DNA of 64,000 nucleotides from Arenicola marina. Lineage: Eukaryota; Annelida; Polychaeta; Arenicolidae. The number at the start of each line of letters is the position of its first letter. Positions within the stretch are counted from its first letter, which is position 1. Positions 1 to 38,488 of the stretch are shown here, one piece after another. The translations under genes were made by a program, and so were the position numbers. The stretch is from NCBI GenBank assembly GCA_964019135.1, contig OZ025265.1:20931143-20995142 (forward strand), written 5' to 3'. Under the pieces are notes generated by a model. That model saw only the letters and a list, made by a program, of their open reading frames with translations. It had not been told where the DNA came from and did no database searches.

Positions 1-67
1 ATTTGAAAGGCGGGGTGTCAATTTGAAGGTTGCATCACATATCATATACCCCATCTAAAGCCACGCC

Positions 68-135
68 AATTTGAAATGATTAAACATATATACAGAGAAC
101 CAAAAACATTCGGCGCTTTCCATTCAGTGAGTTTA
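68..135 (+). promoter_or_regulatory. Upstream module of the gene family, gene 1A copy
   Basis: The stretch contains TTGAAATGATTA, then ACATTCGGCGCTTTC and ATTCAGTGAGTTTA, directly before the start codon at 148. The same word order recurs upstream of pseudogene 2 in both copies and twice upstream of gene 1B. Here the TATAAAA seen in the gene 2 modules is degenerate (TTTACATTT). A promoter role is inferred from position and recurrence only. Confidence 0.45.
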
Positions 136-147
136 CATTTTTTTGCC

Positions 148-3100
148 ATGAGGTGGACTGTTGTCAGAACACCGTTGTTGGCCTTAACGGCTTGTCTGCT
201 GATAAATGGTTTGCTATATCAGGTAAGTACACGGGATGCGGAACGGAGCTGGGCCATGGGATACATTGGGAATGTGTGCTCGTTGGTGAGCGTTTTCATG
301 TATTAGGTAAGCGCCGGAGCGTGGCGAATTGGCAACAAAGATATATAATAACTGTTCCAGTGGAAGCGTCGTCCAACATCAAGAAAAACTCATATAGAGT
401 AGATATTCAAGATCCCTCTAAAGAATGTTTTTCAGAACTAGTCACATTCTAATATGGGTCCTGGCTTTGACGCACGTGTAAGTCCAGTAGTGTTTGGTAT
501 ACATGTTATTATTTTGTTGCAACTGCTATATATCTGCACACTGTGTCACCTTACTGAAGTCATTCATTCATCAGGGCCGCTTAACCGCCAGCCAATCAGC
601 CAACATGTGATAGTCAAGTAGTGGCGGTGACAGTAGGTCTTTGCGTCAAAAATGACAAAATGCAGGCATGTTTCGATCGCGTTCCATTTGGCGTTTAACA
701 AATATATTTCAGCGCGAATACATGACAACATGACCAATATTTCCCGCTCCTACTCGAAGTATTTTCATAAAGGGTTGATATTCAACAAGATCTGACTTTC
801 TTTTAACACGGTAGATCTCACAGAGGATGCCTCTGTCGTACCGCCCCCCTCCCCAGTCCCGCGTCACGGCACTAGGCAAGCCGATGAACGTCAGCGAAAC
901 ACTACTTCGCAAACTCGGGATACCGCCGACGAGGTTCAAGACGCTGACGGCACATAATGTCCGAGACTACGTGTTTGTGACTGCCGCCAGCAGTAACCAC
1001 TTCAACGAGAGTCAGGACTGCGTGGCCGGGATCCAGCAGTTCTTTCCTGGTTGGCAAATACTATACTTCGACATCGGTCTCACGGAGGAACAGCGCGACA
1101 CGGTAAGGTTGGCTTCTATTCGTGATCTACAATAGGATAAACGAGGCCAAGTAAGACTGTATAACAGAGGACATGTTCCCCAACACAGCGCAATAACGTA
1201 ATGATGGAGGTTTCTCACAAGTAGTACTCATCAAAGAGATTCACATACTTCAGGTAAGGCCGAAGAAGGGAAATAGAGTAAATCTGGCATACACGAAGGA
1301 GGACCAGGTCCGTGTCTTCATGCTCAGTAGTTGCAATATAAGGTTCGTGGCTATATACTTGTTGGTATTTGCTACTAATAGTCTGCACCTCCATTTCCCT
1401 CGTAGGGGCGTAGGGGCACTGGGGCTGCTTAATTGGTATAAACAATGTAAGGACGGAAAACCAGACGTGGTACGACGCAGAAATATAGTGAGCCTGCGTT
1501 GTCTCTGACAAACCTGGCCCAAACGAACTGAGTTTCGTTAGCAGTGGCTAGGCCGGGGTTGTCTATGTATCACCAAACGATGATCCCGGTAAATAGATTG
1601 AAAGGGGGAAAGATAAAGAAACGTTGTCGACTTTGAGTCACCTGGATCGTGTAGGCTGAGCGAGAGAGATGAACCGAAAGCGGAACCGAATCAGCAACGG
1701 GTTACGTCGAATGTAATCTATGCAATGCATAGGAGTGCACGGCAAAATAGAGTTAATTCTTCAATCGTTACAGTTCTAACAATACTTGTGACGTATTAAT
1801 GTTTATAGTCAATAAGCAATATAAGACATTAGTGGCATCTGTTAACGAACAACATTAATTTTTTTCAGATACGCACTTGGTGTGACGTGCAGCTTCGGTC
1901 ATTTAGAAAGGAATTATATCCAAAACATGTCAACAATCTCTATACTTACGCATTCAAACCCCTTATTATTCAGGTAAGAAATTCACAACAAGCAAGATAA
2001 AGCTAATAAACTGAGGCAAGTTTCTTTTTTTCTGAAGCATGTTCGGTATGTCGAACACGCCGAGCGATCACCATAACTATCGCGCGCAAAACCTAGCTCA
2101 CGTCTTACTCACCCCTAGCATTTACTATAATAGCGAACAGATCTTAGAGATATCTTTTTGCTTCCACACTGGCCGCTATTTATCTTGATTCATAACGTGC
2201 ATTTACCGAAATAGGCCGAACCCCCAACTTTAATACAATAATGATTTCCAATGAAGGTGAGCCGGATTGTACCAGATGCAGCTCATCGACCGCCATTTGT
2301 TTTATGTCTGTGTCGAATTATTATGATCAAATTAACAAAATTATGAACGTTATTAATCCAAAAGTGTTCTGGTCGATAACGATTAAAGCCGAAGTGTCAG
2401 GGATGGGAAATCGTTTACATTGATTGTAATCGGGCATGCAAGTGAATCTCGTTTTATGTGTGCGAGACCAAATTTTGGAGACAACAACGTTATGTGCGAC
2501 CTTATGTTTTCACTGCGCAGGTCACTCGCTCCCTGCTTGACGAATCGCTGTCATTCTAGTCACGATTTGGGACGAGGAACTAGGCAAACTGCGCGGTGAG
2601 CGTTGCGAGAAAAGGGTGGGTCCATTATAGACCTGTATGCAACTTAAATAAGAACCTGTTAACTATCTAGTGACAATATATTGGTGGAAGACACTTTGAA
2701 CTTGTATTTTTCCGTATCAATAACTGCGGTCAGTAAACTTGGCGCACTACAGCCCGCTGAATACCCAATATTTGCGCTGACCTGACATTGTTGCCGACGG
2801 CCGAATTACAGAGGCAAGCGGAATAAACTATAATTAGCGGAAATGGGGAAATTGCTATTGTTTTCGACAGACCGATTTATCTTGTTCATAGTAGGTTATT
2901 GATGAACATATATACAATGTTTGTTAGCATCATACTACTGACGCATATGGATAAATTTATGAGCAGATATGATTGAACCACTTGAGCTCAATAATACTTA
3001 ATTGTTATTTTACCACGACTGATTTTATTACAGTTTTCATGAATGATGAAGGCTTTGACAAATCATAACTAAGCTTTGTTTAAATATAGCTTTGAACAGA

Positions 3101-4713
3101 AATACTATTATAAAAAGAAAAAAATGCTTACTGGCCTTTTGTATTAACCGAAATATTGTGACAATATAACTCCTCAATCATGCCCTTTGTATTTAGCAAA
3201 TATTGGATGTCAAATAATGTGTACAATATGTATCTACATTTTTGTCTGAGATATATATTACACATAGATATAGAACTAAGCATATGAAATGAAAATGTAC
3301 CTTACATATGTTTTCATCTATGATTAATTCTTTTTTAATTTGTCAAATTTTATTTTATTTCTTATTTGATTAAAATTGAGTTTTTTGCACGTCAACAGTC
3401 AAGTGAACATATCAATAAAACATTGCAAAGTATGTAAATATGAATTAGACAAGAGTACAAAGTACTTAGATGCAAATGTCAACTAAATCTATGAAAATGA
3501 AATGAAAAAGTTAACATGCCGACTGTATGCATAAAACTATAGAACATTTAAATAGAATTGATGAATTTGCAAATGTCATGAATAATAGTTGCCATCACAG
3601 AATGTAGAAAGTTGATGATTATTATAGCCTATTGATCTGTAATTTCGAGTTATATTTAAAATATCGTAAACTGATCTTGTCAAATAATGGAACACATTAT
3701 AACATATATACTATAGCAACCGAGCAGAAGTCTAAAAAAGTGATTATACGAGACCAATTTATTTATTACGACACACAGGATTTATTAAGAAAGCAATATG
3801 TCTTGGTGCTCGTGTCACAACTGTTCAAGGTGTCATCTACCACAATATGGACACGAACAAGTTAATAGTTCTTTATTTAAGTCCCACGAAAGACGAAATG
3901 CGACTCACCCCTTGCTCGCCGCGCCGGCCGCGCAGCTTGCCTGGTTCCACGTTTCATGTAGTAACTAGTATGACAGCCCTCTGCGCGCGGTATCTATTGT
4001 TACGCAGGGGGCGAATGAGGCTGCGCACTGAACAAAAAGCACGTGTTCGTTTGTCTCCAAATTGCCAAGCCGGAAGTAGAACCCGCGAGAACTGACATGC
4101 CCTATTTTCTGATTTTCTCTATGTCTATTAATATAACTTAGGGACATTTTTTCCCTAAATATAGAGTGTATTGACGCAGTTTGACGGCGTTGTCTGGATG
4201 GACGCATCATTTCGAGTTAAACACAACGACTGGGAGGCTATCTACGATCGTCTCTTGGCCACAGATGGATTCTACATGCCGAGAAATCAGGGAATTCCTA
4301 CATTCACCGTCACCCATCCGGGCATGTACGCTTACCTATCTACAGACCTGGAATACCAGAAACACAATATGAGCTACGGGGCAGCGAACGCGTTGATAAT
4401 ACACAACACGAAATCGACGTATTGGAATATTCTCCACTGGTGGTATCTATGCAGTCTGGACCCAGCATGCATTGCGCCGACTGACCAGCGATTCTGCGGA
4501 AATTGGGGAAAATGTGCTGGCAAGGGCGGCAACATCACGTGCTGGGCTGGTTGCCATCGCTACGACCAATCAGCTATTAATATTTTGGCCTCCAACGCCA
4601 TGCGGGATCAAGGGCATATCTTTGTATGCCCAGCATGGGAACAGAATACTTCCATTACAATACAGCGGCGTAATACTGCATGGTATGAAACGCGGTTCTG
4701 TCCGTCAAATTGA
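148..4713 (+). CDS. Gene 1A: DUF1647-type type II membrane protein, 4 exons, 356 aa
   Basis: Proposed exons are 148-285, 824-1102, 1869-1973 and 4165-4713; all junctions are phase 0 with GT..AG borders. Exon 1 encodes a short basic tail and a signal anchor (about residues 5-24). Its end at 285 is preferred over a second good donor at 223, because paralog 2B keeps an identical 138-bp exon 1 although its inner donor is destroyed. The luminal part shows VTAASSNHF (98-106), YFDIGL (127-132), YAFKP (166-170), WMDAS (185-189), a cysteine-rich stretch and CHRYDQSAIN (304-313). Several N-glycosylation sequons are present. This order fits the DUF1647 family of nematodes, recalled from memory; the W.DAS element and topology hint at a Golgi glycosyltransferase-like enzyme, but no activity can be read from the sequence. 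Intron 3 (1974-4164) is AT-rich and holds no recognised element. No lesion is seen. Confidence 0.8.
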
Positions 4714-4983
4714 ACTAATGAAATGTAGTCTATAATAAGAAACATGACAGCAAGGGCAGAAGATTACGGCTTCGATATGAGCAATTAGATGCCTGATGCT
4801 TTCCCAGTTTCCCGCATGCATATCTCAAGTTTAGACGATATGTTGACAATGAGACTCTCATACTCAGTGTTCATGACGTTTTGTTCTTCTCGAATGTAAG
4901 AATGTCTTAATGCACAGCCAGGCTAAGGTACTTGCAGTACACACAGAGGAATACCGTTTTTTTAAATTGTCAGGTCAATACAG

Positions 4984-5300
4984 TAGTAAGTAAGTAAGTT
5001 TATTTCGTATTGGAGGCCATCGGTCCCATAGCACATACAGAGTTACATAAATATGTCGGTGTTACAGGATATATACAATTTAAGTTTCGCCGTTTGCTTG
5101 GTGTAATCTTTCCGCCTTCCATAAATAAATCGATAAATTCAGTATGTCTTGCTTATTGTGGAACTTCATCAATTTAACGATTTAGTTGCCAGATCAATAA
5201 AGTTGACCCATTATAAATGTGCTGTCGGTTTGCAGATGTTTTCAGTTTATCAAGGCTTAAGTACGGGAATCTAAGAAATCGGGGCCTGAACATATATCGA
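4984..5300 (-). mobile_element. 3' end of a LINE (non-LTR retrotransposon), antisense
   Basis: On the minus strand the sequence runs CCTATGGGACCGATGGCC-like text, then AATAAA and a tail of repeated ACTT units. The plus strand shows AGTAAGTAAGTAAGTTTATTT at the edge. Conserved GGGnCC.aGGCC words followed by AATAAA and a short tandem tail also close the LINE remnants at 11.7 and 13.6 kb. No open frame is left, so only the 3' untranslated end is present. The inner boundary is approximate. Confidence 0.5.
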
Positions 5301-5314
5301 TTTATTCAGGATTA

Positions 5315-5382
5315 GATACGTGTGCTCCATGTCAATGCCTAGCATCATCGGCCTGTACGTGCTGCATACCTTCCGGTCGTTC
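5315..5382. repeat. 68-bp direct repeat, unit 1
   Basis: The stretch from GATACGTGTGCTC through ACCTTCCGG reappears at 5743-5810 with about two mismatches, 428 bp downstream. It is probably a small local duplication in the gene 1 to gene 2 interval. Unit 1 could encode a short hydrophobic peptide, but there is no start context or splice support. Confidence 0.75.
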
Positions 5383-5742
5383 TACTATATGTTAAATGGG
5401 TGATTATACTTTAATGTCCGATAAGCAAGATACATGGACACATAATTCGAAGATCTAATCGAGCATGTCTGCATGGTTAAAGCTTTTAAACTGCAGAGAT
5501 GAAAGACACGAGTTTATGGACTCGACAATGCCTTACAAAACTAGGTCAAGGACGCTCAACAATTCCAGCAGAGGTTCAAAACAGAACAGAGCGCGACGGT
5601 CAGATGATAAAAGTTAACCTACAACTTTGAAAGAGATAGTCAGCGAGATTTAATACATAGTAAGGTAGGAACATGTATAACGTAACATTAGGATAAACAC
5701 AGAGTACCGGATACCTAAATCTACGGAATCTCACGGAACAGA

Positions 5743-5810
5743 GATACGTGTGCTCTATGTCAATGCCTAGCATCATCGGCCTGTACGTGCTGCATACCTT
5801 CCGGTTGTTT
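5743..5810. repeat. 68-bp direct repeat, unit 2
   Basis: Second unit of the repeat at 5315-5382. Both units are also present in copy B, at 45128 and 45556, so the local duplication predates the segmental one. Confidence 0.75.
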
Positions 5811-7959
5811 GCCTTCACTCACTTCACATACAAAATCGGCTAAACCTGTCCTTGAATGCAAAACTGACCACTGAAGTTCCGTGCATATCAGAATTATAAC
5901 CATCAAAGTAGATTTATATAATACATGAGCGGTTAGAGAGTTTTAAAAAACCAGAATGCGGTTGCCTCATGAATAACTGTCAGTGTCATGTGATCTAATG
6001 CGCTGCGCTAGGTTTTCCATGTCATATGAGGTAATAATCATCATGGCAGAAATGCAAACAACGTTTCGTCTCATCGAACAGACCACATGAATCATGGAGA
6101 GATAAATGTCTTATCTTTTACTATATTATTCATTTTATGGTTTGGAATGCTTGGACCAAAGCCAACAAAAAAATAGTTTCATACCAACTCGATTATTCAC
6201 GCACAAACCGCGCAGCCGGTCGGTCCCGAAAGCTCAAATGTTGACTACAATGAGTGCGCTTCACGCATCTGTAGCAAGGAACCAGCGTGATGCGCATTCG
6301 TTCTAAGAGCACTTGTTTTTTTGCGTGTCCCCAGAGGGCCTTTAAACGGAAATTGACGGACAAATGGTAAGGCGCCCACTCTTCAATTCTAGTTGTATAT
6401 CAGAGCTCAATCCGGTATTTACGTACACCAGTCTAGTGTTATAAGCGTCGATATTTTGATAATAGTACATAATCCTCTGACATAAGTCAATTGAATTCAT
6501 TGATATTCCACGAAACAAACACAAAATGCATGGTTTTGAAAATCAGTTACCAGGTCGATAGCTGTCAATAATTTGATATAGGCCCGAATACGTTTGATCA
6601 TAATCCTACTGAATGAATGTTTTCCAAACGCATACACTACTCTTCAGTTACAAATAGTGAATAAGTGAGATACGTGTAGCAAAGGGCGGGATGGGGCCTG
6701 TGTAAGGGAAGGGAGAAGAGGGAGGTGGATGGCTTACAGGAGAAGCTCGTAGCGTCATTTGTCTTCCACATTATGTCGATTAAATCATTATCAAATCATC
6801 GTTCAAAATACCCCCCAAAAACGTCCAAGTATTGATTCATGGGATACACCAGGCACAAATCTGACGGCTTTTGGTCGAAAACAACTCGCTACTTGTGGCT
6901 ATAGTGTTATCGATCCCATCATTCATGCAATTACTCAGTTATTTGTTGCTTTCCTGATGCCAAGAAAATATCACTATAACCCCTCTGTCTGAAAGCGGCA
7001 AGTATATCCTATTATCAATGCGTCGAAGAATTAATTGACTGCATAAGCTGGTTATTTAACGCCATGTTATTCGACCCAATAGGGCGCTGTTGTTAAATTG
7101 TATGTTTGTCATACTGACAGAAATGAAAGTTATCACACGATGATAACTGATTTTATGCGGTGTGCAGCCAAGGGTGCATCTAGGGGTGGGTTAACAGAAA
7201 CTGTTGTAACCTGTTATCACCGTATGCAGTATCGATCGCTTGATGCTGTGTCTTCTCTACCTGTTATAATAAAACTTGTTTACCTTTTTATTAGTAGACT
7301 TCTACCGCGACATGTACATACAAGCGGTCGTTATAACCTGCGCGTTCTGCCTTTGCCAATATATCGGATTGGATCTATTTCAAAATTCGAGGCCTTTAGG
7401 CCCATAATAAAAAATAAAATATAACGCAAACGTTTAACAATGTTCGCACAACAACAGCAAAATCATAACTTATTACGAAAATTCATGTCTAATTTCATTT
7501 AACATTTCTGAACACCTCACTGAGTAGTGGCATAATTTGAAGTCATCAAGTGCTTGAAATTTATATCAATAGGGGGATTCCAAAATGTTTGATCTATATA
7601 TAACCTTCTAATATAGTTCCCTAGCGAGTAACTACCTACGGGGCGACACCAGCGCCCTCTGGCGAAGTAGTTTGCCTTTTGTCTTTTCCCCCTTTCGCTA
7701 GATGTCGCTTCATCTGAAACGCCCTGGTTGGTTATTCTCGTCCGGAGCTGTTCCGGGGTATACATTTAAGTGGTAATGGCCGTCCTATCTCGTTCTGAAA
7801 AATTCTGCACCAGAGCCAGGCGAAAACTTCAGCCACCCACCATCCCCAGCCGGCTCTCTGATCGTTTTTGATGTTGCCAATGCCAATCCCAAACCAATCA
7901 CTAATTTTAAAGGTTGAATTTAAACGTTGTGTCATAAACATTTGGCCCCAATGTAAAAC
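5811..7959. other. Intergenic stretch without a recognised gene
   Basis: Frames here are short and not preserved in copy B; for example the 108-codon frame at 7098-7424 loses its start in the equivalent region near 46954. A purine-rich patch (about 6690-6730) is the only simple-sequence feature. From about 5.95 kb onward, mismatches to copy B become much more frequent than before. Confidence 0.5.
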
Positions 7960-8065
7960 CAAACCACTTTGAAATGATTACATATCGATTGGTAATTTTA
8001 AAACATTCGGCGCTTTCAATTCAGCGAGTATAAAAAGTGGTGCAAGAACCACCTGGTACTGGAAT
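7960..8065 (+). promoter_or_regulatory. TATA-containing upstream module, pseudogene 2A
   Basis: The module contains TTGAAATGATTACATATCGA, ACATTCGGCGCTTTCAATTC and AGCGAG, then a canonical TATAAAAA at 8029-8036 and GCAAGAACCACCTGGTACT. In copy B the same module stands about 105 bp before the start codon of exon 1. In copy A the exon that followed has been deleted, leaving an orphan promoter. Confidence 0.5.
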
Positions 8066-8239
8066 AGAATGTGAGCGCACCTACCCTATTGGCGAAGGAT
8101 TCGTGACAAGGGGTATCCATCGCCCGCCCTATAACTAATTATTCTTGCTCTCAACTGGCTCCCTTCATTGCTTGGCTTCAGCTGGCCAGGCACATTTTGA
8201 AAGATTGAGGTTGTTATGCATATTTATTCAGATAAAAGG

Positions 8240-8340
8240 AGACCAGTGAACTCCTGGGACGATAAGGTGCAAGCATGGCACACGGGGTTTAAACCCGCAA
8301 CCCTCTGTCGCTAGGTCCTGACCACGGCGGAAATATCGAC
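8240..8340 (-). mobile_element. tRNA-derived SINE-like fragment
   Basis: Read on the minus strand, GTGGTCAGGACCTAGCGACA is followed by GGGTTGCGGGTTTAAACCCC, resembling A-box and B-box spacing of a tRNA-derived promoter. Intact tRNA stems are not evident. Copy B has the same block near 48620-48700 with one or two changes. Boundaries are uncertain. Confidence 0.4.
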
Positions 8341-8875
8341 GAAATGGCGTGAATTAACTATGCAGCAACAATCCTTGCGCGCAATGAACACTTTTTTAAC
8401 GATTTAAATTTAAGTGTTTCACAAGCTATAAGTTAATCAGCTTTGGTAACAACTTTGTTACAAAATATCATGTTGAAAATGTCAAGCCATTTATTATTAA
8501 TTCAACGCATTGAGCATCCACTGCTTAATTCGTTTCTCACTGTGCAGATACCCAAGTTAGTTCAAATTTAGTAACTATTGACATAGTTACGAAAATATGA
8601 GCCATTTATTTTTGGCAACTAGCCCAAATAGCTTATATGTTATTTTCCATGGGCAAGACAAATCAACGCTATTGAGAAATGTACGAATGACTGGCATTTA
8701 ATCTTGTACCTGTTTGTAGAGAGGTCACAATGATTGGTTTTCGTTATTGAAGATTGAGTGTAAGAAAGAAATGATGCTGGCCCATGTGTAAAGTTTCATA
8801 CGCAGCTATGAGCGATTAATAGGTTTTCAATTAATAAATGTTACGGCTTAGCGTCTGTCATGAAGTTGATCACAC

Positions 8876-8990
8876 CAGCTGATTTGAAATAATTAGATAT
8901 CGATAGGTATGTATGTCCAAGCTTCAACGCTATCCGTTTAGCGAGTTAAAATATTTTTGAGAACAATCGCGTGATATGCCTACATGAATA
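8876..8990 (+). promoter_or_regulatory. Second, diverged upstream module of pseudogene 2A
   Basis: The order TTGAAATAATTAGATATCGA, CGCTATCCGTTTAGCGAGTT, AAAATA and GAATAGAATGTATAGCGATA parallels the module at 7960-8065. It includes TATCGATA at 8898-8905, which equals the DRE/DREF core motif known from insects. Whether it acts here is unknown. It lies upstream of exon 2 of the pseudogene, so it may be an alternative promoter or a duplicated relic. Confidence 0.4.
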
Positions 8991-9481
8991 GAATGTATAG
9001 CGATAGGGAACGTCTGGCAGTATATATATACATGCATATAAACCAGTTAGTGTAGTCCTGCAATTACTCTATATTATATATACCAACTGGTTAGTGTTGT
9101 GTCGTAACGTGCCGCTCGTGGCCGCTCCCGCGCGATTCTCGCAGACAATATCTAGTCGCCATGATTATTTTCAAGTAATATAATCTAAACTCACTCTTTC
9201 GCAATGATTTAATTTTAGAATTGTTGAGGCGATATTGATAAAACGAGTGTTATACATGTCTTAGAGTTCATTTCTTAAGTCTGAAAGGACTAGGACACAT
9301 GAATCTGAACAAAGCAGTACCAAATTGTAATCTTATGTATTTATTTAATTATTGTACTGCACAATAAGAAATATTTGCCACCACCCATATGAGGCGTTCA
9401 ACTGACAGGCTATATCGTTAAAGATGAACCTTAACAAAAAAGTTAATTTCTATATCTCGTTTGTTTTGTATTGCTTTTCAG

Positions 9482-10700
9482 GAGATATCTGTGCCTCTGT
9501 CGTACCGCCCTCCCAGTCCCTGTGTCACGACAATCGGTAAGACGATGAACGTCAGCACAACGCTACTGCGCAGACTCGAGATACCGCCGACGAGGTTCAA
9601 GACTCTGACGTCACAGAACGTCCGAGACCACGTGTTTGTGACCGCCGCCAGCAGTAACCACTTCAGCGAGAGTCGGGACTGCGTGGCCGGGATTCAGCTG
9701 TTCTTTCCGGGGTGGAAAACACTGTACTTCGACATTGGGCTCACAGGAGAACATCGCAACGAAGTTAAGATTTCATCATCGATTGGCACATTCTCGAAAG
9801 TTAATGATTGAATTATCAACTTAAATACATTTTGGGTTGGAATGTGTTGGTAAGATACTCCAAAGCAGCATGAAACGGTGCAACAACATACACACTTTGG
9901 CTTCGTACCCTTATATTTGACTTTTTCAGATAAAAGGCTGGTGCGACGTTGAGTTGCGTGCGTTCGCCTTCGAGGACTTCCCACCGCACGTCAGCAATCG
10001 ATACAAATACGCCTTCAAATCATTATTAAGGTAATTAAGTAAGGGACAAATAACAAGATTTGTCTAGATATGATACAATTTGTCTTGCTATATTGAGAGT
10101 TCGCCAGCTTTAAATCAGGCTTAAATATATTATGTTCTTTTAACACTTTAACAGAGTGTGATGGTGGAGTTTGACCGCATATTCTGGGATCATGCTTCAA
10201 TTCGCATAAAGCACAGAGACTGGGTAACCGTCTACGGGCACGTTATGGATACCAATAGATTTTACATGGCGAGAAATACGTGGATCCCTCTCTTTGCTGT
10301 CACACATCCGGGCATATATGAGTATCTACTCACGGACCTCGAATATCAGAAAGGATATGCGGGCGCTGGTGCCGCGGGGGCTCTGATTCTGCACAACACA
10401 AAGACAACTTATTGGAATATCTTGCATTGGTGGTTCTTGTGCGGTCTTGACCCAGCCTGCATTCCGCCCACTGAGCAGCGCTTATGCGTAGATTGGGGGA
10501 AGTGTGTTGAAGCAGACTTTGGCGCCACGTGCCGGGCTGGTTGTCATCGCTACGACCAATTAACATTGTGGTGTCATGCGGGATCAAGGGCACGTGTACT
10601 TACAACCGGGCGGGGAGAACTCGCCGATCATTGTAGAGAGGAGACCAACATATTAGTACACGCTTCGACATTGCACATTAGACACCCTAAAATAACATAA
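9482..10700 (+). pseudogene. Pseudogene 2A: DUF1647-type paralog, exon 1 deleted, frameshifted
   Basis: Three exon equivalents remain: 9482-9763 (open, same motifs as gene 1 exon 2, donor GAA|GTTAAG), 9930-10030 and 10155-10700. The third is 101 bp, whereas every intact paralog has 105 bp; four bases are missing just after the TTCAAA of the YAFKP region, which breaks the frame. In the last exon the conserved CHRYDQSAIN tail turns into an unrelated sequence because about 6 bp and then about 7 bp are missing relative to gene 3. Exon 1 is absent: a 515-bp block retained in copy B (47924-48439) is gone here. Good splice signals persist and the upstream frame is well preserved, so silencing may be fairly recent. 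Both exon deletions are shared with copy B. Confidence 0.8.
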
Positions 10701-10756
10701 AAACCTGCTTTTTGCATACTGGATACTTGGTCTTCACCAATTATATATTTTGGTTC

Positions 10757-10762
10757 AATAAA
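10757..10762 (+). terminator. Polyadenylation signal AATAAA of pseudogene 2A
   Basis: Canonical AATAAA lies 57 bp after the final stop frame and is followed by a GT/T-rich stretch (about 10785-10800). It is conserved in copy B at 51149-51154. Confidence 0.55.
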
Positions 10763-11559
10763 GTGCTGATGCTTTATATTATATATGTTGTGCTCATTCT
10801 TATTGATCGATTCGTTGGTTATTCCGTATTACTCCGCCGAATAAGCATTTTCGAATTCACCGCTATGTTATCACTAAATCTGTATCACTAAACTATCACA
10901 AAATCTTACTTGAACCACGTAGTAATCGTGGTAGAACTATATGGTATTGCTCACATGTTTATATGATTTCCCGATTTAGTATTAATTATTACGTAGGTTT
11001 TAATTCGTAATAATGCGAGCATTATCCAGTGCATCCAAGCAAACTTTAAATTTCGTAATTGCCAGCATGAAATAATTGATATTACGATCGAGAGCATATT
11101 TACATATATATCTACATGCTATCGGGGTTGAATTTACAGACAAGTTACGCTCGCTCAACCTGAAATCATAAAATTTCTAGAAATACGGCTAGTTACAATA
11201 CTTATAATTAAGTAACATTTTGAAAGATGAAAAAGTGCAAAACATCTGACATCACAAAAGCACCTACACATTGTTTATTCGATTTCAATTGTGAAACCTG
11301 TCTGTCTGCATTAAATTGTGCCAGAATTAGAAAAGCATTGTCGCGTTTCAGGTGTTCCGCCCATTATAATTAGCAATTATTACCAATTAGCAATTATTAG
11401 CAATTAGCACTCGAAGACGAATACCATGCCTTGTTGTGTTGCCCTCGCTATAGAGATACCAGGTAACTATACATAGAAAGCATATTTTGGAACCCACCAA
11501 CCCTTGAAAACTTTCCCATATTAATGACTTGCACCAATACTAGAACTCAAAGGAATTTG
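10763..11559. other. AT-rich intergenic stretch
   Basis: No gene is recognised. A small cluster of AATTAGCAATTATTA-type tandem words lies at about 11368-11408. Copy B matches closely here, with mismatches clearly fewer than at 6-8 kb. Confidence 0.5.
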
Positions 11560-11735
11560 GCGATGTATATTTACACTATTGAGAAAGGAGGGATATTTTT
11601 TATCAATACTTGATAATTTATTGTGTACGCCCAACATTCGTTCTTTCATTTTGTATTTCGTTTTCATTGATTCCTTGTATTATGTACTTTGGGCCCGATG
11701 GCCTGTGAAATAGAAATAAAATCAATGAACAGAAG
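11560..11735 (+). mobile_element. LINE 3'-end fragment
   Basis: The stretch ends in TTTGGGCCCGATGGCCTGTG followed by AAATAGAAATAAAATCAATG. This parallels the GGGCCCAAGGCCTG plus AATAAA ending of the LINE remnant at 13281-13590. No coding part is recognisable. The same block is in copy B at about 51952-52127. Confidence 0.4.
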
Positions 11736-11799
11736 AAAACATTTCAAGAAGTGTTGCGATGCTAATTCATAGGCGTAGAAAGACTGTTGCGATTTGAGA

Positions 11800-12480
11800 G
11801 GGGGGGGGGGGGGGAGCACAACCAATACGTAATTGACCGAACACTTTTCGTTCAGTCATTTTCTGCTCAACAAACGCTATGTATGTACCCCGTCAAAATA
11901 ACACTGGTTTGCTTGTAGTCTACACGATAATTTGCATGCCTATTAGTATTATTACTATAAATCGAGTATCAAATGCTGGAAAAGTCTGTGATCGAATTTT
12001 CTTTTTATACTCGTTGTGCTTAAAGGATTAAAATACCGTGTTCACTAAAGGCATTAACATTTTGTACCCTTTGCCAAATGTAAATAAATACTGTTTACAA
12101 AAATCTGCTCATTCAGCTTAAACCGGTCAATCACGCAAGTTTTCGCATAATTCACAATATAAAAATGTGTTTGAACTCAACCTATATTTTCGCATACCTG
12201 TTTTACATTTACTCTTGATACCGCTGCAAAGACCATGGTAAATGGAACTTTCAGCTTATAGAAGTCTAAGTCATCACAATGAAGTTGAAGTCTTTAAATG
12301 ACCGATAACGACATCAGGACAGATTCCTGTGCCGGATCCAGAAATTTTCAAAAGAGGCGGGGGGCACCATTTAATTTGTGATTGGGGGAGGGGAGGGCGT
12401 GCTGGTTAGATTGTGCAGAAAGAATAGTGACTGTGCCCCCTGTGCCCCCTTCTTCAGATCGCCGGGGGGGGGGGGGGGCT
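11800..12480. other. Intergenic stretch bounded by long G homopolymers
   Basis: Runs of about 15 G (11800-11814) and about 17 G (12464-12478) flank unremarkable AT-rich sequence. A G-rich patch at about 12350-12400 has the look of an old repetitive element. Run lengths differ between the copies, and the runs may carry sequencing error. Confidence 0.45.
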
Positions 12481-13067
12481 GTCCCTCGTTCTGCCACTGG
12501 ATTCTATAACAATCCCTATACTATAGTCATGTATCGTTGCTTAAATCGACGTGCCAGTTTTTCCGTTCTTCTGTTTTCTGGTTTTCTGGAAGTATTGGTG
12601 AGATAAGTAGCCCTCGGCGCATGTGTATCGATGATTTTCAGATCCAGATTCTCAGATCATTTGGCCCACCCTCTCCAGATCTATAATAGAGTAAGGTAGT
12701 CCCTCCACCGTCGAAAATCTAGGTCTAGAATAAATTAGTAGATATGAAACAAATGTCCAACTTCATATTGCCGAGTCGAGATTAGGGCTTACTGACTTAA
12801 TCTGCCGTTTTTCGTGGCCGTTTTACAATCCCAAACATGAGCAGCGTGGAATTTAACGCTTCTCTTCTGGCTTCATATTGTTGGCTTTTCGCGCTTAACG
12901 TAACTCCACGCTGCACGCGAGGCGCTCAGCAATGGCAATGCCGCATTGATCAGATGATTCGTGGTTCTGTATAAGATGCACCCATACAAAGATCTCTGAA
13001 ATTTATCGTGAGGCTTTACCACGACAATAGTAGGAAAAACATTATCATGTCTTACGTTGGAAAGCAG

Positions 13068-13180
13068 CATGAGAATTATTGGCAGGGGGGGGGGGCACAA
13101 AGATACCCGTGCCCCCCGCCCCAATATTTTGATCGGAGGGGTCACATGCCCCCCCCCCCCCCCTGCCGATAATTCTCATG
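13068..13180. repeat. Palindromic MITE-like element with poly-G/poly-C arms
   Basis: CATGAGAATTATTGGCAGGG at the left edge is mirrored by CCCTGCCGATAATTCTCATG at the right edge with one mismatch, and the arms continue into poly-G and poly-C. The loop of roughly 55 bp contains GTGCCCCCCGCCCC and GGGGTCACATGCCCC. No transposase is present. Copy B carries the same structure at 53462-53578 with different homopolymer lengths. Confidence 0.65.
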
Positions 13181-13280
13181 GTCTGTGATTGATATTACGT
13201 AAAATAACTTATCTTCTGATTGCATTTAATACCGACAAATACCTCAGTTGTGTAACATTTATTAATTTCGTCGGATTCTT

Positions 13281-13590
13281 ATGCCAGTAATTAATTCTTT
13301 CAGAAAATTCTGTAGTTATTGTTTGAATCGCAAAAAGGAAGTTGTGGAAGAATGTCATTTCATAATGGTGTGTCCTCTTTATGATAACATAAGAACTCGG
13401 TCTTTGAGTTTGTCAAGCTGTCCAGCGGAACACAAACCCGTCGTAAGCAGTCTCGCTGCTTATGTTTACACCGCAATGAATGTACATTCCACCAGTATTT
13501 GAAGAGCGTTTTTTTTTCAATCGAAATGTTTTCGTTATTTTTACTTTACTATGGGCCCAAGGCCTGAAGTAATAAAGCTATGAATTACAT
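13281..13590 (+). mobile_element. 5'-truncated LINE, C-terminal end of the reverse transcriptase ORF
   Basis: A 73-codon frame (13281-13502) reads CSYCLNRKKEVVEECHFIMV followed by CPLYDNIR. This matches the cysteine-containing C-terminal tail common to CR1/L2-like reverse transcriptase polyproteins. A short 3' untranslated part follows, ending in ATGGGCCCAAGGCCTGAAGT and AATAAAGC. The element is 5'-truncated, as is usual for LINE insertions. Confidence 0.6.
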
Positions 13591-14065
13591 GTATCTAATA
13601 ATTCTCAACAGATCAACCCGTCTGGGGTCATCTATTTGGCAAATATAGGCCAATGAATAATCCATTGAGATCCCCTACGCGTATATACGTAGATACCTCG
13701 TCATAACCAGAAACTCCAAGAACCAGCACGTCATCAGTAGGACGGCTTAATGCACGTTTCTTCTTCAAATACATTTTGTTAAATGGATCATTGCTATGCA
13801 ATTACTACATTTTATGTGTTACTCTGGCATCGTATATACATAGATACCTGTGACTGTGATTAAACTGTGACCGACGTACGTTGCCTCCATGACTCGTTGT
13901 CTGGTCTTGGTTAATGCTCACTAGTCTCCTAGTTTGACGTGTCCAGCGCAGGTTCCAGTACCAGCTCAGGCGTGCGTAGATCGCGAAGAAACCATTTGTA
14001 AAAAAATTGGGATCCAACCTCTGCATCCACGATGGCTGAGTTGGTAACCCTGTTATTGGAATAAG

Positions 14066-14108
14066 TCTTCTTCTTCGTCTTCTTCTTCTTCTTTAGGGGG
14101 GGGGGGCG
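14066..14108. repeat. CTT microsatellite next to a poly-G run
   Basis: About eight CTT/CGT triplets are followed by TTTA and about ten G. In copy B the triplet array is shorter and the G run longer (54461-54498). Confidence 0.8.
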
Positions 14109-15203
14109 CAAGGGGTGATTTTGCATGTCTCTAGTTGCTGCTTCCTTGTTGCAATGCCACAAGAAAAAAAAGATTGTCACGTATAGCTTGAGAAAAAAAA
14201 ACGAAAATCGGTGTTATAGGTGTTAGATGTTAGTACCGACTGCGACTATGTACATTCAATATCGTCACCGCGCCGCTAGGCATTTGGCGTATCGAGGCTT
14301 TATAATAGGATCGATCATGTTAAAGTGTGATTATTTTCTACCGTCCGAACTACTGGTTCGATTTCGATGCTATTTGGCAAACATGATGTTAGTAATTAAC
14401 ATGGCCACACAGTCAACCACCTGCATTCACTTTTGGCAATGTCAAACGTTGATCAGCCAACTCGAAATCTATAAATGTGAGGCAAAATATAATATTACGA
14501 TAATACGATAATGCGCTTCCGCCTCTCTCTAAGAAACACTCTGAAACTAACTGTGAATCTCTAAACCCAATATTAACGTAGTTACGCGGGAAAACATGGT
14601 GTGTGACCTTGACTTTTCTGTGATCTTTACCTTGATCAATATAGTACTTCGCGCCCAAATGCTAATGTCATGTCTCAAGTTGTCGTTTGTCAGACTTGTC
14701 CCCTTCATCGAGAAATTGAGGGTGCTATTTCTCGCCAAAATCCTCTCATCCAAAGGGTTCAATGTTAAAGAATTTTTGTAGAAAAAGTATGCGGGCGATT
14801 TGCAAATTAAAACACTGGCTTTGGCTTTGTGGTAGAACCCTCTCAAACCCAGCCATGTACTGAGTACTTCGCCCCTCCCCCGCTCGTCGGCTCCCCAATA
14901 GGTCACGCTTGTCAACAACATATGGACAGCATTCTAGTTTGCTAAGGTAATTCCTAAACAAAATAGAGAGCGCAAGCGAGCTCTTAAGGTAACATGCATG
15001 TATATGTAGCAAAATCCAAGTTTATTTCAAGCATAGGCTTAGGACTCGAAATATGTTATGTCAAGTCTTTAATAATTAAATTATCTGTCCTAAAAAGGTA
15101 ACGAATAAATTACTCAAACGCTAACACTTCATCTACACTTTACATTACAATACATTGATGAGTTTATCGATCCGCGCCGCGCAAAATAGTAGTTGTCACT
15201 CTC

Positions 15204-15217
15204 CCAGCAGAGGGCGC
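15204..15217 (+). promoter_or_regulatory. CTCF-type consensus match
   Basis: CCAGCAGAGGGCGC fits the vertebrate CTCF core CCASYAGRKGGCRS at every position. It is retained unchanged in copy B at 55602-55615. It lies between pseudogene 2 and gene 3, which converge on this interval. Binding is inferred from the motif alone. Confidence 0.35.
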
Positions 15218-16639
15218 TCGGACTGTGTTCCACTAGACAACAAGCCGGATCTGAGACTGATTGTTTTGGTTTTCACTGACTGGTTCTCGTCCACAGTGGC
15301 TTCCCGTAAAGGGAACGTCACCTACCGGCGTCTTAAACTATAAGCGTCTCCGCTTAAAAACATGGCTGGTCGTCTGCTGGCCTTCTCAATTATAAATAGA
15401 CTGACTGGAATCTTGCAAGAAATAAGTTTCATTTATACAACCTTTTCGTACAGGTTTTGTCGAATTTATGTGACAAAAGTCATCAATGCAAATGTAAGTG
15501 AGGTTACCATCATTGCTACCTATACATATACAATCAAGCACATTAACAAAAGTAAATGAATGATAATTAATAAGAGAAGTTTATAAATACTGTATTTAAT
15601 TTTTCACACATATTTTTCTTATATCTACAATAAATTACTTTTGACTTAAGATCAACTTTTTTTAGCATGTCAGTATCAGTATTTTTTAGCATCAGTAGCT
15701 TAATTTAGAGTTGATTTTATTATCTTAGGCTTAGACCGCAGTAGGGTAATAATAAATTGTACATATTATATATTAAGCATGCACATGTAACGGTATATAT
15801 ATCAAATCCATGGCTAGGCTTATATATACCTAATAACTGCATGTCATTTATTCACTTGTTGTCTGTTATGTTAGTTTAATTTTATAAGAGAGATTAACAT
15901 TGATTGCCCAAAAAGATCCACAGAGTAAAACTGCTCAAGTGTTACTGGTAGGTTAAAGTTGTTATTGTCCATTTCCGTTCCCTGCCTGCATTTGAGAAAC
16001 ACTAATAAAAATTGCATCTATATAAATATAAATGGCAGTTAATAGCTGGTGATCATTTATAGGTGGCTTCATGATTTTCACAGATAGAGTAGCTGTCACA
16101 TCCAGCTCAGCCAATCCATGCAGGATTTTATTTGTTATTCCTCAATTTCATTGGCTTCCAGCATATCATTCATGTTGCGGAGTTGCTAGTTACATTCAGG
16201 GTTTAATATTCTTTTGGTCTGAGATTGTAAGAATGTGGCTATATTGTTAATTTTGTTATGGACTAATACATCAAAATCAATATCCTATTATATATTCTAT
16301 TATAGGTATTATATAAACTTGTCTTACCTTGTAGGCTCAAATGGCATAATGTGCCCCTTTGATATTGAATGCAATCATTTCAGGGTTTATGCATTTGGTT
16401 TCACGTTGTATCAAAATTGAACATCATGGTCAAAATGATATAGTATGTCAGTATGTAGTTTTGCCACATTCAGTTATTTTGCCCATATTTTTGTCTGCTA
16501 CTAGCTGCAGTCATCCGTGTCATCTGGTTATTGCGACAACTTAAGTTACTCCCCTTTCATCATTATACCTTTTATTTTACTATGTTGTAAAATAAAGACA
16601 AAGAGAGATGTAAACCTATGTAGCTATGCAGTAGTTGAT
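15218..16639. other. AT-rich intergenic stretch
   Basis: Only short frames without motifs, and low-complexity AT-rich sequence with ATATA tracts. No gene or RNA is recognised. It is present in copy B with few indels. Confidence 0.5.
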
Positions 16640-17035
16640 TTAAAAATGCAAAATCCCTTGGTAACAAATGGACTAATGAGCCAATTAAAACATTAGGCAA
16701 CTACATATCGTACGACAATGCAGCTAGCTATGACAAACGTGTAAAAAGTAAGATAAAAGACATGAAATATAATAATCAACTTATTGCGAACCTGCAACCT
16801 CACTGTATTAGGTAAAATACAAATTATGAAAAACTACCTTATATCTAAATTACAGTTTATGTTTTCTGTGCAGTTTTTGGATAAAGACACAATTAAACAA
16901 ATAAAAACAATTATACTCAAAATTCATATGGAATGGTAAAAATGGAAAAATAAAGCGAGACACCCGTGTAGACACTAATATAAATGGAGGATTAACTGCC
17001 CCACACCTAGAAAAACACTTAGGGATACCATGCCC
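16640..17035 (+). mobile_element. Decayed L1/Tx1-type LINE fragment, C-terminal part of ORF2
   Basis: Broken frames read KPIKTLGNYISYDNAASYDK early, then NYLISKLQFMF, and after a one-base shift WNGKNGKIKRDTRVDTNINGG with LTAPHLE. The KPIK.LG...SYD, LISKLQF and W.GK..KIKRDT...GGL words are the usual sequence after the reverse transcriptase core in L1/Tx1-clade ORF2. It carries at least one frameshift and ends near a C-rich run at 17048. It is also in copy B. Confidence 0.6.
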
Positions 17036-17147
17036 ATCCTTCTATACCACCCCCCCCCCCAACATAGGGCTCATGTATTAATTCCGCTCTGAAGACCGAA
17101 TCACGGGACAGCCTCGTCAGCTTACGTTATCCCTTATTGTCGTTAAG

Positions 17148-20100
17148 TTATTTTGAGGTGTCTTCGGTACAATGTCGAAGAGTGTACCAATTTGTTGGTC
17201 TCCTTTCCACAGTGATGGGCGGGTTCTCCCCGCCCGGTTGTAAGTACACGTGCCTTTGATCCCGCATGACGTTTGCCACCACAATGTTAATGGCCGATTG
17301 GTCGTAACGATGACAACCAGCCCAGCACGTGGCACCAACGCCTGCTGCAACACACTTCCCCCAATCTCCGCATAATCGCTGCTCAGCAGGCGCAATGCAT
17401 GCTGGGTCAAGACCGCACAAGTACCACCAATGTAGGATATTCCAATAAATTGTCTTTGTGTTGTGCAGAATCAGAGCCCCCGCAGCACCAGCGCCCGCAT
17501 ATCCTTTCTGATAGTCGAGATCGGTGGGTAGGTATTCATATATGTCCGGATGGGTCACAGCAAAGAGAGGGATCCACGTATTTCTGGCCATGTAAAATCC
17601 ATTCGTATCCATAACGTTCTCGTAGACGGTTTCCCATTCGTTGTGCATTATACGAATTGAAGAATCCACCCAGAATATGCCGTCAAACTCCGCCATCACA
17701 CTCTGTTAGAATGTTAAAAGAACTTATTATATTTAAGCCTGATTTAAAGCAGGCGAACTCTCAATTAATTCCTTTAATATTGACAGGATTGTTTTGCAAG
17801 CTTCAGAAAGGTCCCAATTATGTAATATGTGTAAACTCCTAAAGACAACAATGCCATATCAAGACGAATCTTGTTGTTTTCCCCTGCTTAATTACCTTAA
17901 TGATGATGGGTTTGAAGGCGCATGTATATCGATTGCTGACGTGCGGTGGGTAGTCCTCGAAGGCGAACGCCCTCAACTCAACGTCGCACCAGTCTTTTAT
18001 CTGAAAAAGTCAAATATAGGAGTACGGAACCTGCGCGTGTTACACCTTGTCCCGATGCGTTGGAATATCTTGCCAATGCATTCCAACCCAAAATGTAGTT
18101 GATAATTCAATCATTAATTTCGAGAATGTGTCAAGCGATGATTAAGGCTTGATTATTATACTTAAATATATTAATAATAATTCAAATATCGCGTGTCGAT
18201 TCCGTGACAAGTTGCTAAGTGAGAGCCCGGAAAGGAAAATTCAGACACGCACACTTTAAGTTGCAGCGTCCTTCCGACCGGCCTGAGCCATCATGGGAAT
18301 ATAAGCGGCAGTCGTTCAAACGATCAATTTAGTTTCTTTGCGATCTGATATCAAACTATGTTTAACCTCGTTGCGTTGTTCCTCCGTCAGCCCGATGTCA
18401 AAGTAGAGTATTTGCCGACCGGAAAAGAACTGCTGAATCCCGGCCACGCAGTCCCGACTCTCGTTGAAGTTGTTACTGCTGGCGGCGGTCACAAACACGT
18501 GGTCTCGGATGTTCTGTGACGTCAGCGTCTTGAACCTCGTCGGCGGAATCCCGAGTCTGCGCAGTAGCGTTGTGCTGACGTTCATCGGCTTCCCGATTGT
18601 CGTGACGCGGGACTGGGGAGGGGGTCGGTACGAGAGCGGCACCGATATCTCCTGAACGGAAATAAAAAACCAACGAGATTTCGAAATTAACTTCATGATA
18701 TAGCCAACGAATTGGTTCATTTTGGTTCAAGTGGTAGACGTGAGTAATAACGTGGGCTATGCTGATACAATGGTTTCCCCCGAACATGGCAGCACGACAG
18801 TGCGTCTAATCTCAATCAAGGGTTTTGTGTACTATAATCCCACCGAGGCCCCACCATGGAAAATTACAGCTTTTGTTGAAGACTAGCTCCTACGTCCCAA
18901 GGGACTTTCAAAAACATAAATGCCAATATGTTGCTCCATCAAAATAGAATACCCGATAATTTTCTTATGGGAAAGTATTTGCCGTTATCTTTTAACAATT
19001 AATCAGAGCCGTTCATTTGACGTTTCGCAATGTAAACGTGAATTCGCATTTGAAGCTGGTGCTCTGTACGCACGAGGCGGGCAGTCATGCCTTTTTTTCT
19101 GTCACAAACTCCGTTACAAAGCATCGTAGGTTAAAACAAAATTGATGATACTATGAATTCAACACTACAAACACCTACTTGGTGCTTCCTTTATACCAAA
19201 TGCCTATTCGTTTGAATAGCTACATACACCTTTCGCCTGTCTATATTTACCAATTAAACTGGAACCTACGTCACTTGGCGTCAAAATCGGTTTGAATCGT
19301 TCAGAGTTAATGCCCAAGTTGGTTCAGATGTCCTGACTAAAGCAAAACGCCACACTATTTTCGGAAACGAACAAGATTGCTCATTTTCTCTGACCTTTAA
19401 GCGTCAGGTATTTCCATAGGCACTGCCTGTTTTTCAATTGTGAAATAAAACCCGAAATAGGGTCAGATGGTTAAGTAATCGACCAATTATTATTTATTAG
19501 GCTAATTAGTTACTATAGTGCTGCAAAGACCAACAGATATTGGCTTTACCTCAATCGATAGCGAATCGCGGCCACTCGCACGATTAACGTCTGGCGCGTC
19601 CTGTACGGTGGATTCTCCATTGTAGCGTTCTCGGCCGTCAGTCGATGTGGTGCTATTCTGTAAGTTCACTGAAACATGTACTGTAAGTTAAAGTTACTCA
19701 TGCAGCAATATGTTCCCTGTAAAACTTCAAAATAGTTTGAATGGAAATGATGTATACATGTAGGTTTTTCTGTGTATGTGCACACACCTGTATGCAATAA
19801 ATACCAAGGCAAACCACTTTTTAAGGCCAAACGGTTGCATTTCTCGTGGAAAGTGTGGCATCCTTGTCTTCTTGTGTACTCATCAAAATGGCTTCTTATG
19901 TACTCATCGAAATGGCTTCTTGTGTACTCATTACCATGTCTTCTTGTGTACTCAACATGCCTTCTTGTATACTCAACATGTCTTCTTGTATACTCATCAT
20001 CATGACTTCTTGTTTACTCATCAATATATCTTCTTGTGGCCTCACCAACATGTCTTTTTGTGTACTCATCAACATGTCTTCTTGCGTACTCATCAAAATT

Positions 20101-34700: not shown

Positions 34701-36098
34701 TGAGCGCACTGCTTCCCTTAGATGTGTTATCCATTAACGTTACTGTGACTTATGTTGCCATAGATATTACGAAACCTTCAATGACTCCAATAGTTTTATA
34801 TTTATTTAACTTAGTCCTGCCCTTTTTCTTTCCAAGTTTCGTCGTCTTTTGCGCGTGTATCATGTTCAAATTAACACTCCCATCTTAGTCGAGTGAACAA
34901 GCCTTTGGTTTCTGCACTTGCTGCGAGTAGCTGTCATGCAAATTAATTTGATTGAATGCAAGTTATTTTCGTGTGAGAATAAACTGATTGTTAAAACAGA
35001 AAGTTGCTCGAATCCGAAGACCCGCACTTTTGTAGTAGGGCGATTTGTGTCATGCCTCAAGCAGCTCGAAAGAATGGAATAAAGTATGTGACTAAGTATT
35101 TACTTATGCAATCACAATATTTTACAATGACTCACCCATGGAACAGTCCTTGGGCCTCCAGCAAAGAAAGATTGGCGACTATCATGGAGATTTGTCCGTC
35201 GCCAAGGTAGCGACCCGGGTCCTCTTGTTTGAGGCGTCGTGCGTCGGCAGCAGAAACCCGGGACGGTGGGTTGTTCAGTAGAAGGTTGACGGGGCCCATC
35301 GATGGAATCTCCATCTTTAAAGATACGAGTGTTAATTGACTATTGCAGTAAAATCTAATGTTACTATTAGAAATGCAATGCTTAATTAAGCGATCATTAC
35401 ACAAAATATAAACTGCTTACAACGGATTTTAAAGTGACTTATATATACAAGGAATGTTAGTGAGAATTACGATAAATGTCAGTGGCAATCACCATCAACG
35501 CTAAAGTGAAGAAATGTTAGGGGTCTAGTCTCCAGTGTTTCTTTTGCAAAGTGTTCAGTGTCCACCCTCGATTTTTTGAGTAAAGGTGACACTGTCGAAA
35601 CTTCGAAAAACACATGTAAAACTGTATAAGTGTCGAATTTGAAATTTTCGAAGTTGGGAATTTGGATTGCAATGTCGGGTATTTATTTAACCAGCATGCA
35701 GCCTGTCGCCTTGTTCCCAACCAGACCCACTGTATTGTCAATCTAGCGTCCAGCGTCCATTTCTCCAAAGTGTCAGTGTTCACTCGATTTTTTTAATAAC
35801 GGTGTCGCTGTCGAAATTTCTGTAAAACCTTTTCTGTGTCGGGAATTTGAAGTGTTCCGGGTATCGTGGGTGTTGATGATTAGCGTTTAAAGTTAGCAAT
35901 GGCGAGTGATGCTTAAATTCGTTTGATTCTAGTTTCACCAGCGTCACACTTAATTTACCGCATACCCAGACCTACCTGTCCGTTCGCTGTCACGCGTGCA
36001 GCACCACCATATATAATGTGATTAGCCAGCCCAACCAGGAAGACTCCCATAGCAACGAGGGCGAACCCCTTGCAATATTTCACCGGCCAGACATGCAT
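31758..36098 (-). CDS. METTL24-like (Methyltransf_22) type II membrane protein, 6 exons, 333 aa
   Basis: Minus-strand exons are 35976-36098, 35136-35314, 33150-33281, 32809-32883, 32405-32543 and 31758-32111. All borders are GT..AG and phases 0, 2, 2, 2, 0 chain without a stop. Exon 1 encodes a short tail and a signal anchor (about residues 11-30). Exon 3 ends in CLVYSFG, exon 4 gives SNDWSFDDAI and FGCEVHSFDP (160-169), and exon 6 gives LKVDVEGAEF (from 222). These words are characteristic of the Methyltransf_22 domain of METTL24-like proteins, a class related to FkbM S-adenosylmethionine-dependent methyltransferases. The substrate is unknown; a Golgi or secretory-pathway location is inferred from topology. 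A CAG acceptor-like site just 5' of the ATG on the minus strand suggests a 5' UTR intron. A LINE fragment lies antisense in intron 2. Confidence 0.85.
33793..34480 (+). mobile_element. 5'-truncated LINE: C-terminal reverse transcriptase part plus 3' UTR
   Basis: An uninterrupted 180-codon frame (33793-34335) includes YGCQLWDF, FYIAWRKVIRRLFDLPYRTH and EVQLHNRFIVF, typical of the region after the reverse transcriptase domain in CR1/L2-like LINEs. The 3' part is T-rich (TTGTTGTTGTTGTTTTTTTT) and ends with GAATAAAGATATATAAAG. It lies in intron 2 of the methyltransferase gene in antisense orientation. The long intact frame suggests a fairly young insertion. Confidence 0.75.
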
Positions 36099-36187
36099 GC
36101 CACGTCTGAATCGGAACGATGGGGATTACTAAGGAAAGCATAATTTGAATATGATGGACACAAATGCGGAAGTTGGTGACCTGCTCT

Positions 36188-36276
36188 ACATTTTACTTCA
36201 CATTTTACTCAACATTTTATTTTACTTTACATTTTACTACACATTTTACTACATATTTTACTGCACATTTTACTTC
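36188..36276. repeat. Tandem repeat of ACATTTTACT(T/A)C units
   Basis: About eight degenerate 11-12 bp units. It lies about 100 bp upstream of the start codon of the methyltransferase gene, so it may be in its promoter or 5' UTR. Confidence 0.85.
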
Positions 36277-36382
36277 ATCTTTGACTGAAGTTACACCGAA
36301 GAGGACTTCGCCAAGAATGTCCTTCATCGAAAGAGCCATGAGAGGCTCAATGATTTGTAGGTATTATCTTCAATTTGGCGAC

Positions 36383-38448: not shown

Positions 38449-38488
38449 TTCTGATTGGTTAAAACTCATTCTGATTGGTTAAAACTCA
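38449..38488. repeat. Two tandem copies of a 20-bp unit containing ATTGG
   Basis: ATTCTGATTGGTTAAAACTC occurs twice in a row. Each unit holds an inverted CCAAT box. Confidence 0.85.

Follow-up and report, generated by a model that had tools for sequence, protein, structure and literature searches.

Does a sharp step in divergence between two adjacent gene copies record the homogenization of one gene, or the history of the repeats in which the copies lie? This question is raised by a 64,000-nt stretch of the Arenicola marina genome (hereafter the window; positions 20931143-20995142 of contig OZ025265.1, here C20, in an 867-Mb assembly of 762 contigs), which holds two copies, A and B, of a repeat carrying DUF1647 genes. 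An earlier note on this sequence had described a step in identity near 5.95 kb, had judged that gene 1, at the start of the repeat, looks homogenized, and had read the profile as gene conversion or a recombination boundary and not as uniform ageing of one duplication. Because the repeats of the array to which A and B belong appear to have exchanged large blocks, we read the step as an ancestry switch: it most likely marks the point where one repeat passes from one set of relatives to another.

Divergence between the two copies

The two copies were aligned globally, and the divergence profile was segmented by change-point analysis with column shuffles; positions 19860-21000, a minisatellite and its neighbor, were dropped.

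Window 1-22636: unit A copy, aligned with the unit B copy at 39815-64000
148..4713, plus strand: gene 1 of unit A, a DUF1647 gene with exons at 148-285, 824-1102, 1869-1973 and 4165-4713; 356 aa; splice sites placed manually
39962..44526, plus strand: gene 1 of unit B, with exons at 39962-40099, 40637-40915, 41682-41786 and 43978-44526; 356 aa; 4 nt and 3 aa differences from A

Over 5989 columns, 1-5990 and 39815-45803 differ by 20 substitutions (0.33%); divergence in the next segment is 3.81%. For 1-5950, the earlier count of roughly 20 substitutions and one 1-bp indel is exact (20 in 5949 columns, one 1-bp indel), against 150 substitutions predicted by a uniform rate. The rise in the next 600 bp is also real, with a count somewhat below the 15 or so first given (11 in 600 bp; 15 are reached at 650 bp). 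Within 1-8500, the maximum-likelihood (ML) single step lies at 5991 (2-lnL interval 5934-6268). The first split of the whole alignment falls at the same position, with a log-likelihood ratio (LLR) of 112.7 nats that none of 200 column shuffles equaled (largest 8.1). Over 42 windows of 500 bp the variance/mean ratio is 10.98, compared with a maximum of 1.88 in 2000 shuffles. The sharp step is thus borne out, and both the windowed profile and the breakpoint analysis speak against a uniform rate.

The dip described at 9-12 kb and the peak over gene 3 at 17-19 kb are likewise present, measured at 9.86-12.79 kb and 17.33-19.28 kb. Six of the eight change-points were unmatched in 200 shuffles; those at 8487 and 17334 were each matched once.

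1-5990: 0.33%
5991-8486: 3.81%
8487-9855: 2.64%
9856-12786: 0.85% (25/2928), a second low tract, containing gene 2 exons 3-4
12787-16767: 3.23%
16768-17333: 4.42%
17334-19275: 8.92% (167/1872), a high-divergence tract over gene 3
19276-21800: 2.82%
21801-22636: 0.60%
5934..6268: the divergence step, ML position 5991; placed at 5681-5699 by the test of B against units Ya and Da and at 6177 by the joined series (both below)

Gene 1 contributes four of the 20 substitutions of the low tract within its 1071 coding bp (three nonsynonymous, one synonymous), and the other 4919 bp contribute 16, an about equal density as counted by hand. Because the coding sequence has diverged about as much as the rest, constraint or selection on gene 1 fails to account for the low tract. 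GC bias is absent from the tract (8 changes one way, 8 the other), and the share of transitions (10/20) resembles that of the remainder (279/520; Fisher p 0.82). We noticed post hoc that, along the tract (222-5757), transversions make up 10 of the first 12 substitutions and transitions all of the last 8. Also left of the step, 5314-5381 and 5742-5809 form a 68-bp direct repeat with 97% identity.

The copies are units of a tandem array

We examined 310 kb around the window (C20:20840001-21150000) and projected each unit onto unit A with 19860-20640 masked; to be accepted, matches had to be colinear, at least 80% identical and about 80 bp or longer. A and B are the window's two copies; the other units are called Z, Ya, Yb, C, Da-Dd and E in this analysis. 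The array consists of roughly 40-kb tandem repeats and spans about 290 kb. Array-like matches start at about 20.841 Mb, close to the left edge of the examined region, and end at about 21.134 Mb. More than two copies of the unit lie head to tail, all on one strand, with unit starts spaced at 47.5 kb (Ya-A), 39.8 kb (A-B), about 38.9 kb (B-C), 39.2 kb (C-Da) and 64.2 kb (Da-E). Units C, Da and E begin at A coordinate 1451 (C20:21011325, 21050488 and 21114708), and gene-1-type exons 1-2 were not found in these three units.

The array bears on whether the step could be an assembly artefact, in which alleles or units were wrongly strung together, each step then being a switch of haplotype or contig. 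Assembling long repeats is difficult. False duplications are reported where heterozygosity is raised, especially at borders between homozygous and heterozygous sites (PMC9516828). According to the same source an assembly gap most often lies between falsely duplicated copies; the whole 310 kb contains no N, so this sign is absent here. The longest exact direct repeat in the region is 2434 bp. At 7-8 kb the units fall into three or more lineages, {A, Dd, Ya, C}, {B, Da, E, Dc} and Yb; therefore at least two real copies exist, although A and B themselves could still be alleles. Own-genome searches with four stretches, scoring 40 candidates each, gave no full-length copy outside the array among the matches scored: two gene-3 queries had 64 and 66 matches, all on C20, and off C20 the two other queries matched over part of their length, in what look like dispersed repeats. 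We consider assembly error unlikely as the cause.

In the same searches, the listed gene-query matches, all on C20, reveal further clusters of similar genes at C20:0.13-0.26, 15.345-15.470 and 26.243-26.299 Mb. Window 2428-3000 and about 24101-25245 have copies on many contigs and are probably dispersed repeats.

A comparison across units also addresses a low mutation rate or strong constraint in 1-5990. The low count itself speaks for such a cold spot, and nothing further was found in its favor. However, 1451-5000 differs by 2.0-4.6% between A/B/Ya and C/Da/E (the latter three lack 1-1450). Positions 1-146 are the same in A and B (the first substitution is at 222) yet about 86% identical to an adjacent copy at 39477-39622. 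We find this explanation hardly credible. Around the latter copy, 39390-39622 and 39728-39960 form a 233-bp repeat (87%) of the stretch preceding gene 1 exon 1, with weaker copies before gene 2.

Units are mosaics of one another

Since more than two copies exist, the A/B profile compares two mosaics. We compared units in 1-kb windows (skipping pairs with fewer than 300 columns), segmented blocks against other units at a fixed LLR threshold of 12 without shuffles, and painted units as mosaics of donor units. In the 1-kb windows, the site patterns and the painting, the nearest relative of a unit shifts along its length.

Unit A is nearest to B or Ya at 1-6 kb (0.3-0.6%; Ya 1.2% in 5-6 kb), to Dd at 7-22 kb (0.0-0.6%), and mostly to Yb at 22-39.8 kb (0.1-1.4%), where Z, B or C are equal or closer in a few windows. 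Unit B is nearest to Ya or A at 1-6 kb, to Da at 6-9 kb, to C or A at 9-12 kb and to C at 21-37 kb. No unit is close to it at 13-20 kb.

6937..21928: block that A has in common with Dd at a distance of 147 kb; 45/14184, 0.32%
45804..49244 (A coordinates 5991-8868): unit B right of the step, painted as C, Dd, Da, Dc and Da in turn; nearest to Da in 1-kb windows

The A-Dd block of 15 kb has more diverged flanks on both sides (2.13% and 2.24%). A B-C block at 19473-36846 has 29 differences in 14414 columns, and the three best-defined blocks are 13-17 kb long. The painting recovers the same large blocks as the 1-kb windows, plus more and finer switches, and the mosaic outdoes the best single donor in all four regions tested (0/100 shuffles each).

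The 17-19 kb peak is due to B alone, which is 7-10% from A, C, Yb and Dd there, these four being 0.2-1.5% apart. It coincides with gene 3.

17148..18627, minus strand: gene 3 of unit A, exons 2-4; exon 1 not found
57549..59147, minus strand: gene 3 of unit B; dN 0.043 and dS 0.153 to A

Among 40 scored candidates in the own genome, no relative closer than the other units over its length was found for gene 3 of B (91-92%, 85%).

The step is mainly a change in unit B

At sites that distinguish Ya from Da, B matches Ya over Da by 120:10 up to 5990, by 1:2 in 5991-6450 and by 9:74 beyond, a change seen in 0 of 2000 permutations. With E replacing Da, the counts are 113:11, 3:1 and 8:38 (0/2000). 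Unit A, used as a control at the Ya/Da sites, favors Ya on both sides (116:14, 1:2 and 70:13), and does so with E as well (109:15 left, 38:8 right). The distance of B to Ya rises from 0.26% (1-5523) to 3.39% (5524-9541). Among 89 sites informative for A, Ya, B and Da, B groups with Da in none of 10 at 1451-6450 and in all 61 at 6451-8950; at 8951-9950 it does so in 1 of 18, where Ya changes relatives. At about 5.7-6.9 kb both A and B are of mixed ancestry.

Because the matches of B move from Ya to Da while those of A largely stay, the step is mostly a change in B. We conclude that it is mainly an ancestry switch in unit B. The extra units thus support the earlier preference for conversion or a recombination boundary over uniform ageing.

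The low-divergence block is not specific to gene 1

We joined the end of Yb with A and compared this series with A joined to B. The low tract spans -7125 to 6176 around the unit start with 44 differences in 13301 columns, and neither end was matched in 200 shuffles. It is therefore a 13.3-kb block across the unit boundary, beginning 7.1 kb left of the unit start and not centred on gene 1. Farther left, divergence is 0.86% for about 18 kb, back to -25026 (140/16324).

1..5990: low-divergence tract of unit A, the right-hand part of the 13.3-kb block; 0.33% to B
32689..45989: second copy of the 13.3-kb block, made up of the last part of unit A and the first part of unit B; 44/13301 against the Yb end joined to the A start

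That gene 1 looks homogenized therefore holds for the low divergence there, and not for a gene-1-specific extent, since the block runs into the previous unit. Local conversion of gene 1, maintained by selection on it, would fit two facts: the units in which all four gene-1-type exons were found (Ya, A and B) form a near-identical trio (0.1-0.7% at 1-5 kb), and the mean length of human conversion tracts is 6.26 kb (PMC10172114). It is weakened by the extent of the tract, which is 13.3 kb and runs over a unit boundary. Coding and non-coding differences are similarly dense, three of the four coding ones alter the protein, and a degenerate gene, gene 2, also lies in a low tract. We judge a gene-1-specific process very unlikely.

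9509..10700, plus strand: gene 2 of unit A, a degenerate DUF1647 copy with a frame break and a stop in exon 4; exon 1 not found
47980..51092, plus strand: gene 2 of unit B, with the same frame break and stop and an additional stop in exon 3; exon 1 retained
47924..48438: 515 bp present only in B, missing from A at 8077/8078; contains gene 2 exon 1

As the 515-bp stretch contains gene 2 exon 1, this indel is probably a deletion in unit A.

Probable exchange between array units

We think it probable that units of the array exchanged sequence by non-allelic homologous recombination and that one recent shared block has its right-hand limit at the 5991 step. To the left, A, B and Ya would descend from a recent common ancestor. 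To the right, past about 1 kb of mixed ancestry in both units, B would belong to the lineage of Da (with E and Dc at 7-8 kb), and A would go with Dd and Ya. Where a block crosses from one unit into the next and keeps the 39.8-kb register, unequal crossing-over may be the cause; where a block has other ancestry on both sides, it may be conversion-like transfer or a double exchange. The A-Dd block fits a transferred patch of this kind, and a double crossover fits it too. The array, its block boundaries, the move of B to other nearest relatives and the parent change within exon 2 of some genes are observed; the order and direction of events, the division between crossover and conversion, and the cause of the 5991 step itself are what we infer.

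Alternatively, two old array haplotypes that carried different kinds of unit could have recombined by ordinary allelic crossover, in register, with B as the join. Unit ends do group as {Yb, A} and {B, C}, with B joining both kinds, and A and B differ by at least 3% in 10 of the 12 1-kb windows of 26001-38000, where A-Yb and B-C are mostly below 1.5%. Z and Dd, however, swap sides between windows, and such a crossover alone yields neither the A-Dd block at different array positions nor the chimeric genes described below. Haplotype recombination is possible for part of the pattern; as the explanation of the whole, it seems rather unlikely.

Several points weigh against non-allelic exchange as the source of the step. 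The break location varies by test (5991, 5681-5699 or 6177), and a weaker shift appears in control A as well, at about 5.4-5.6 kb (56 and 17 of 2000 permutations). The painting was run with a single set of parameters, and beyond the large blocks it breaks up into many short segments with 1-8% mismatch and no good donor. The basis is one assembly, with events read from one chromosome, and the chimera evidence in exon 2 lies outside the window and may reflect an older event. Gene-2/gene-3 conversion as the origin of the 17-19 kb peak was rejected: the sites look clustered, yet runs (5031/20000) and the longest run (4630/20000) are not significant. The accompanying scan is weakly significant (719/20000), and this test as a whole also counts on the negative side.

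Chimeric genes and exon 2

Three array genes outside the window combine gene-2-type exons 1-2 with gene-1-type exons 3-4.

C20:20891379-20895648: chimeric DUF1647 gene
C20:21069973-21075428: chimeric DUF1647 gene
C20:21078844-21083114: chimeric DUF1647 gene, with a stop in exon 1

Their diagnostic sites are nearly all gene-2-like up to 982, gene-1-like from 1081 and mixed between. The parent change thus falls within exon 2 in all three, in the zone 983-1080, which is the hybrid-gene sign of unequal crossing-over. Most simply, the three represent one event that was later copied. They are the clearest sign of crossing-over in the array.

Silent divergence between genes 1 and 3 is 0.33-0.44 in exon 2 (window 824-1102 and its counterparts) and 1.2-1.4 in exon 4. 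Exon 2 is also the most similar part (90-94%) in the distant clusters on the same chromosome, among the matches scored. One might suppose that DUF1647 exon 2 is a recombination site that repeatedly makes new gene combinations, a proposal we hold to be doubtful. Genes 2 and 3 show no such contrast between exons (0.241 and 0.220), the exon 2 protein is more conserved, and the exon 4 values are near saturation. If the proposal were true, the array would be a generator of chimeric genes, beyond a drifting repeat.

Domains and other features

DUF1647 (PF07801) matches gene 1 exon 2 with 31.2 bits (gathering cut-off 25.7) and exons 2 and 4 joined with 26.7 bits. Exon 4 alone has no Pfam match and, by sequence, no PDB match. 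A search for its relatives in viral_contigs gave five pattern matches, none confirmed; in genome_contigs one of four was confirmed, a short stretch of Brevundimonas intermedia matching at 50% identity (E 1e-4). No Rfam match reached the gathering threshold.

31782..32111, minus strand: methyltransferase exon (Pfam Methyltransf_21, FkbM)
19865..20629: 24-bp minisatellite of unit A, 32 copies, excluded from counts
60399..62213: 24-bp minisatellite of unit B, 76 copies

Six units (Z, Yb, A, B, C and Dd) carry one copy of the methyltransferase exon apiece, with 97-100% protein identity to A.

Relation to known systems

Non-allelic recombination in a tandem array is a known kind of process that is unusually legible here, and theory treats conversion together with crossover (PMC4132178). 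As in human segmental duplications, blocks of several kb have apparently moved between duplicated units: the top 10% of human interlocus conversion tracts exceed 14.4 kb (PMC10172114), and our three clearest blocks fall at 13-17 kb. Unlike the human case, the units here form a tandem array of roughly 40-kb repeats and the events are read from a single chromosome. Like maize P1-wr and p2-p1 (PMC2686159), the locus combines a tandem gene array, exchange between repeats and chimeric genes. The maize p2/p1 chimera is reported to contain filler DNA, and its mechanism is described as entirely different from meiotic exchange between repeats; here, in contrast, the parent change lies within a homologous exon in alignment. 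In C. elegans, too, DUF1647 genes cluster with potential methyltransferase genes (PMC7614267); the cluster account in that paper makes no mention of copy-to-copy exchange and calls the function unknown, without biochemical data.

The divergence profile of two adjacent copies could not be read as age, or as gene-specific homogenization, before the whole array was seen, and one divergence step is here mostly an ancestry switch in one mosaic unit. Among animal gene families of unknown function, the locus provides a clear example of chimeric genes and of exchange in large blocks.

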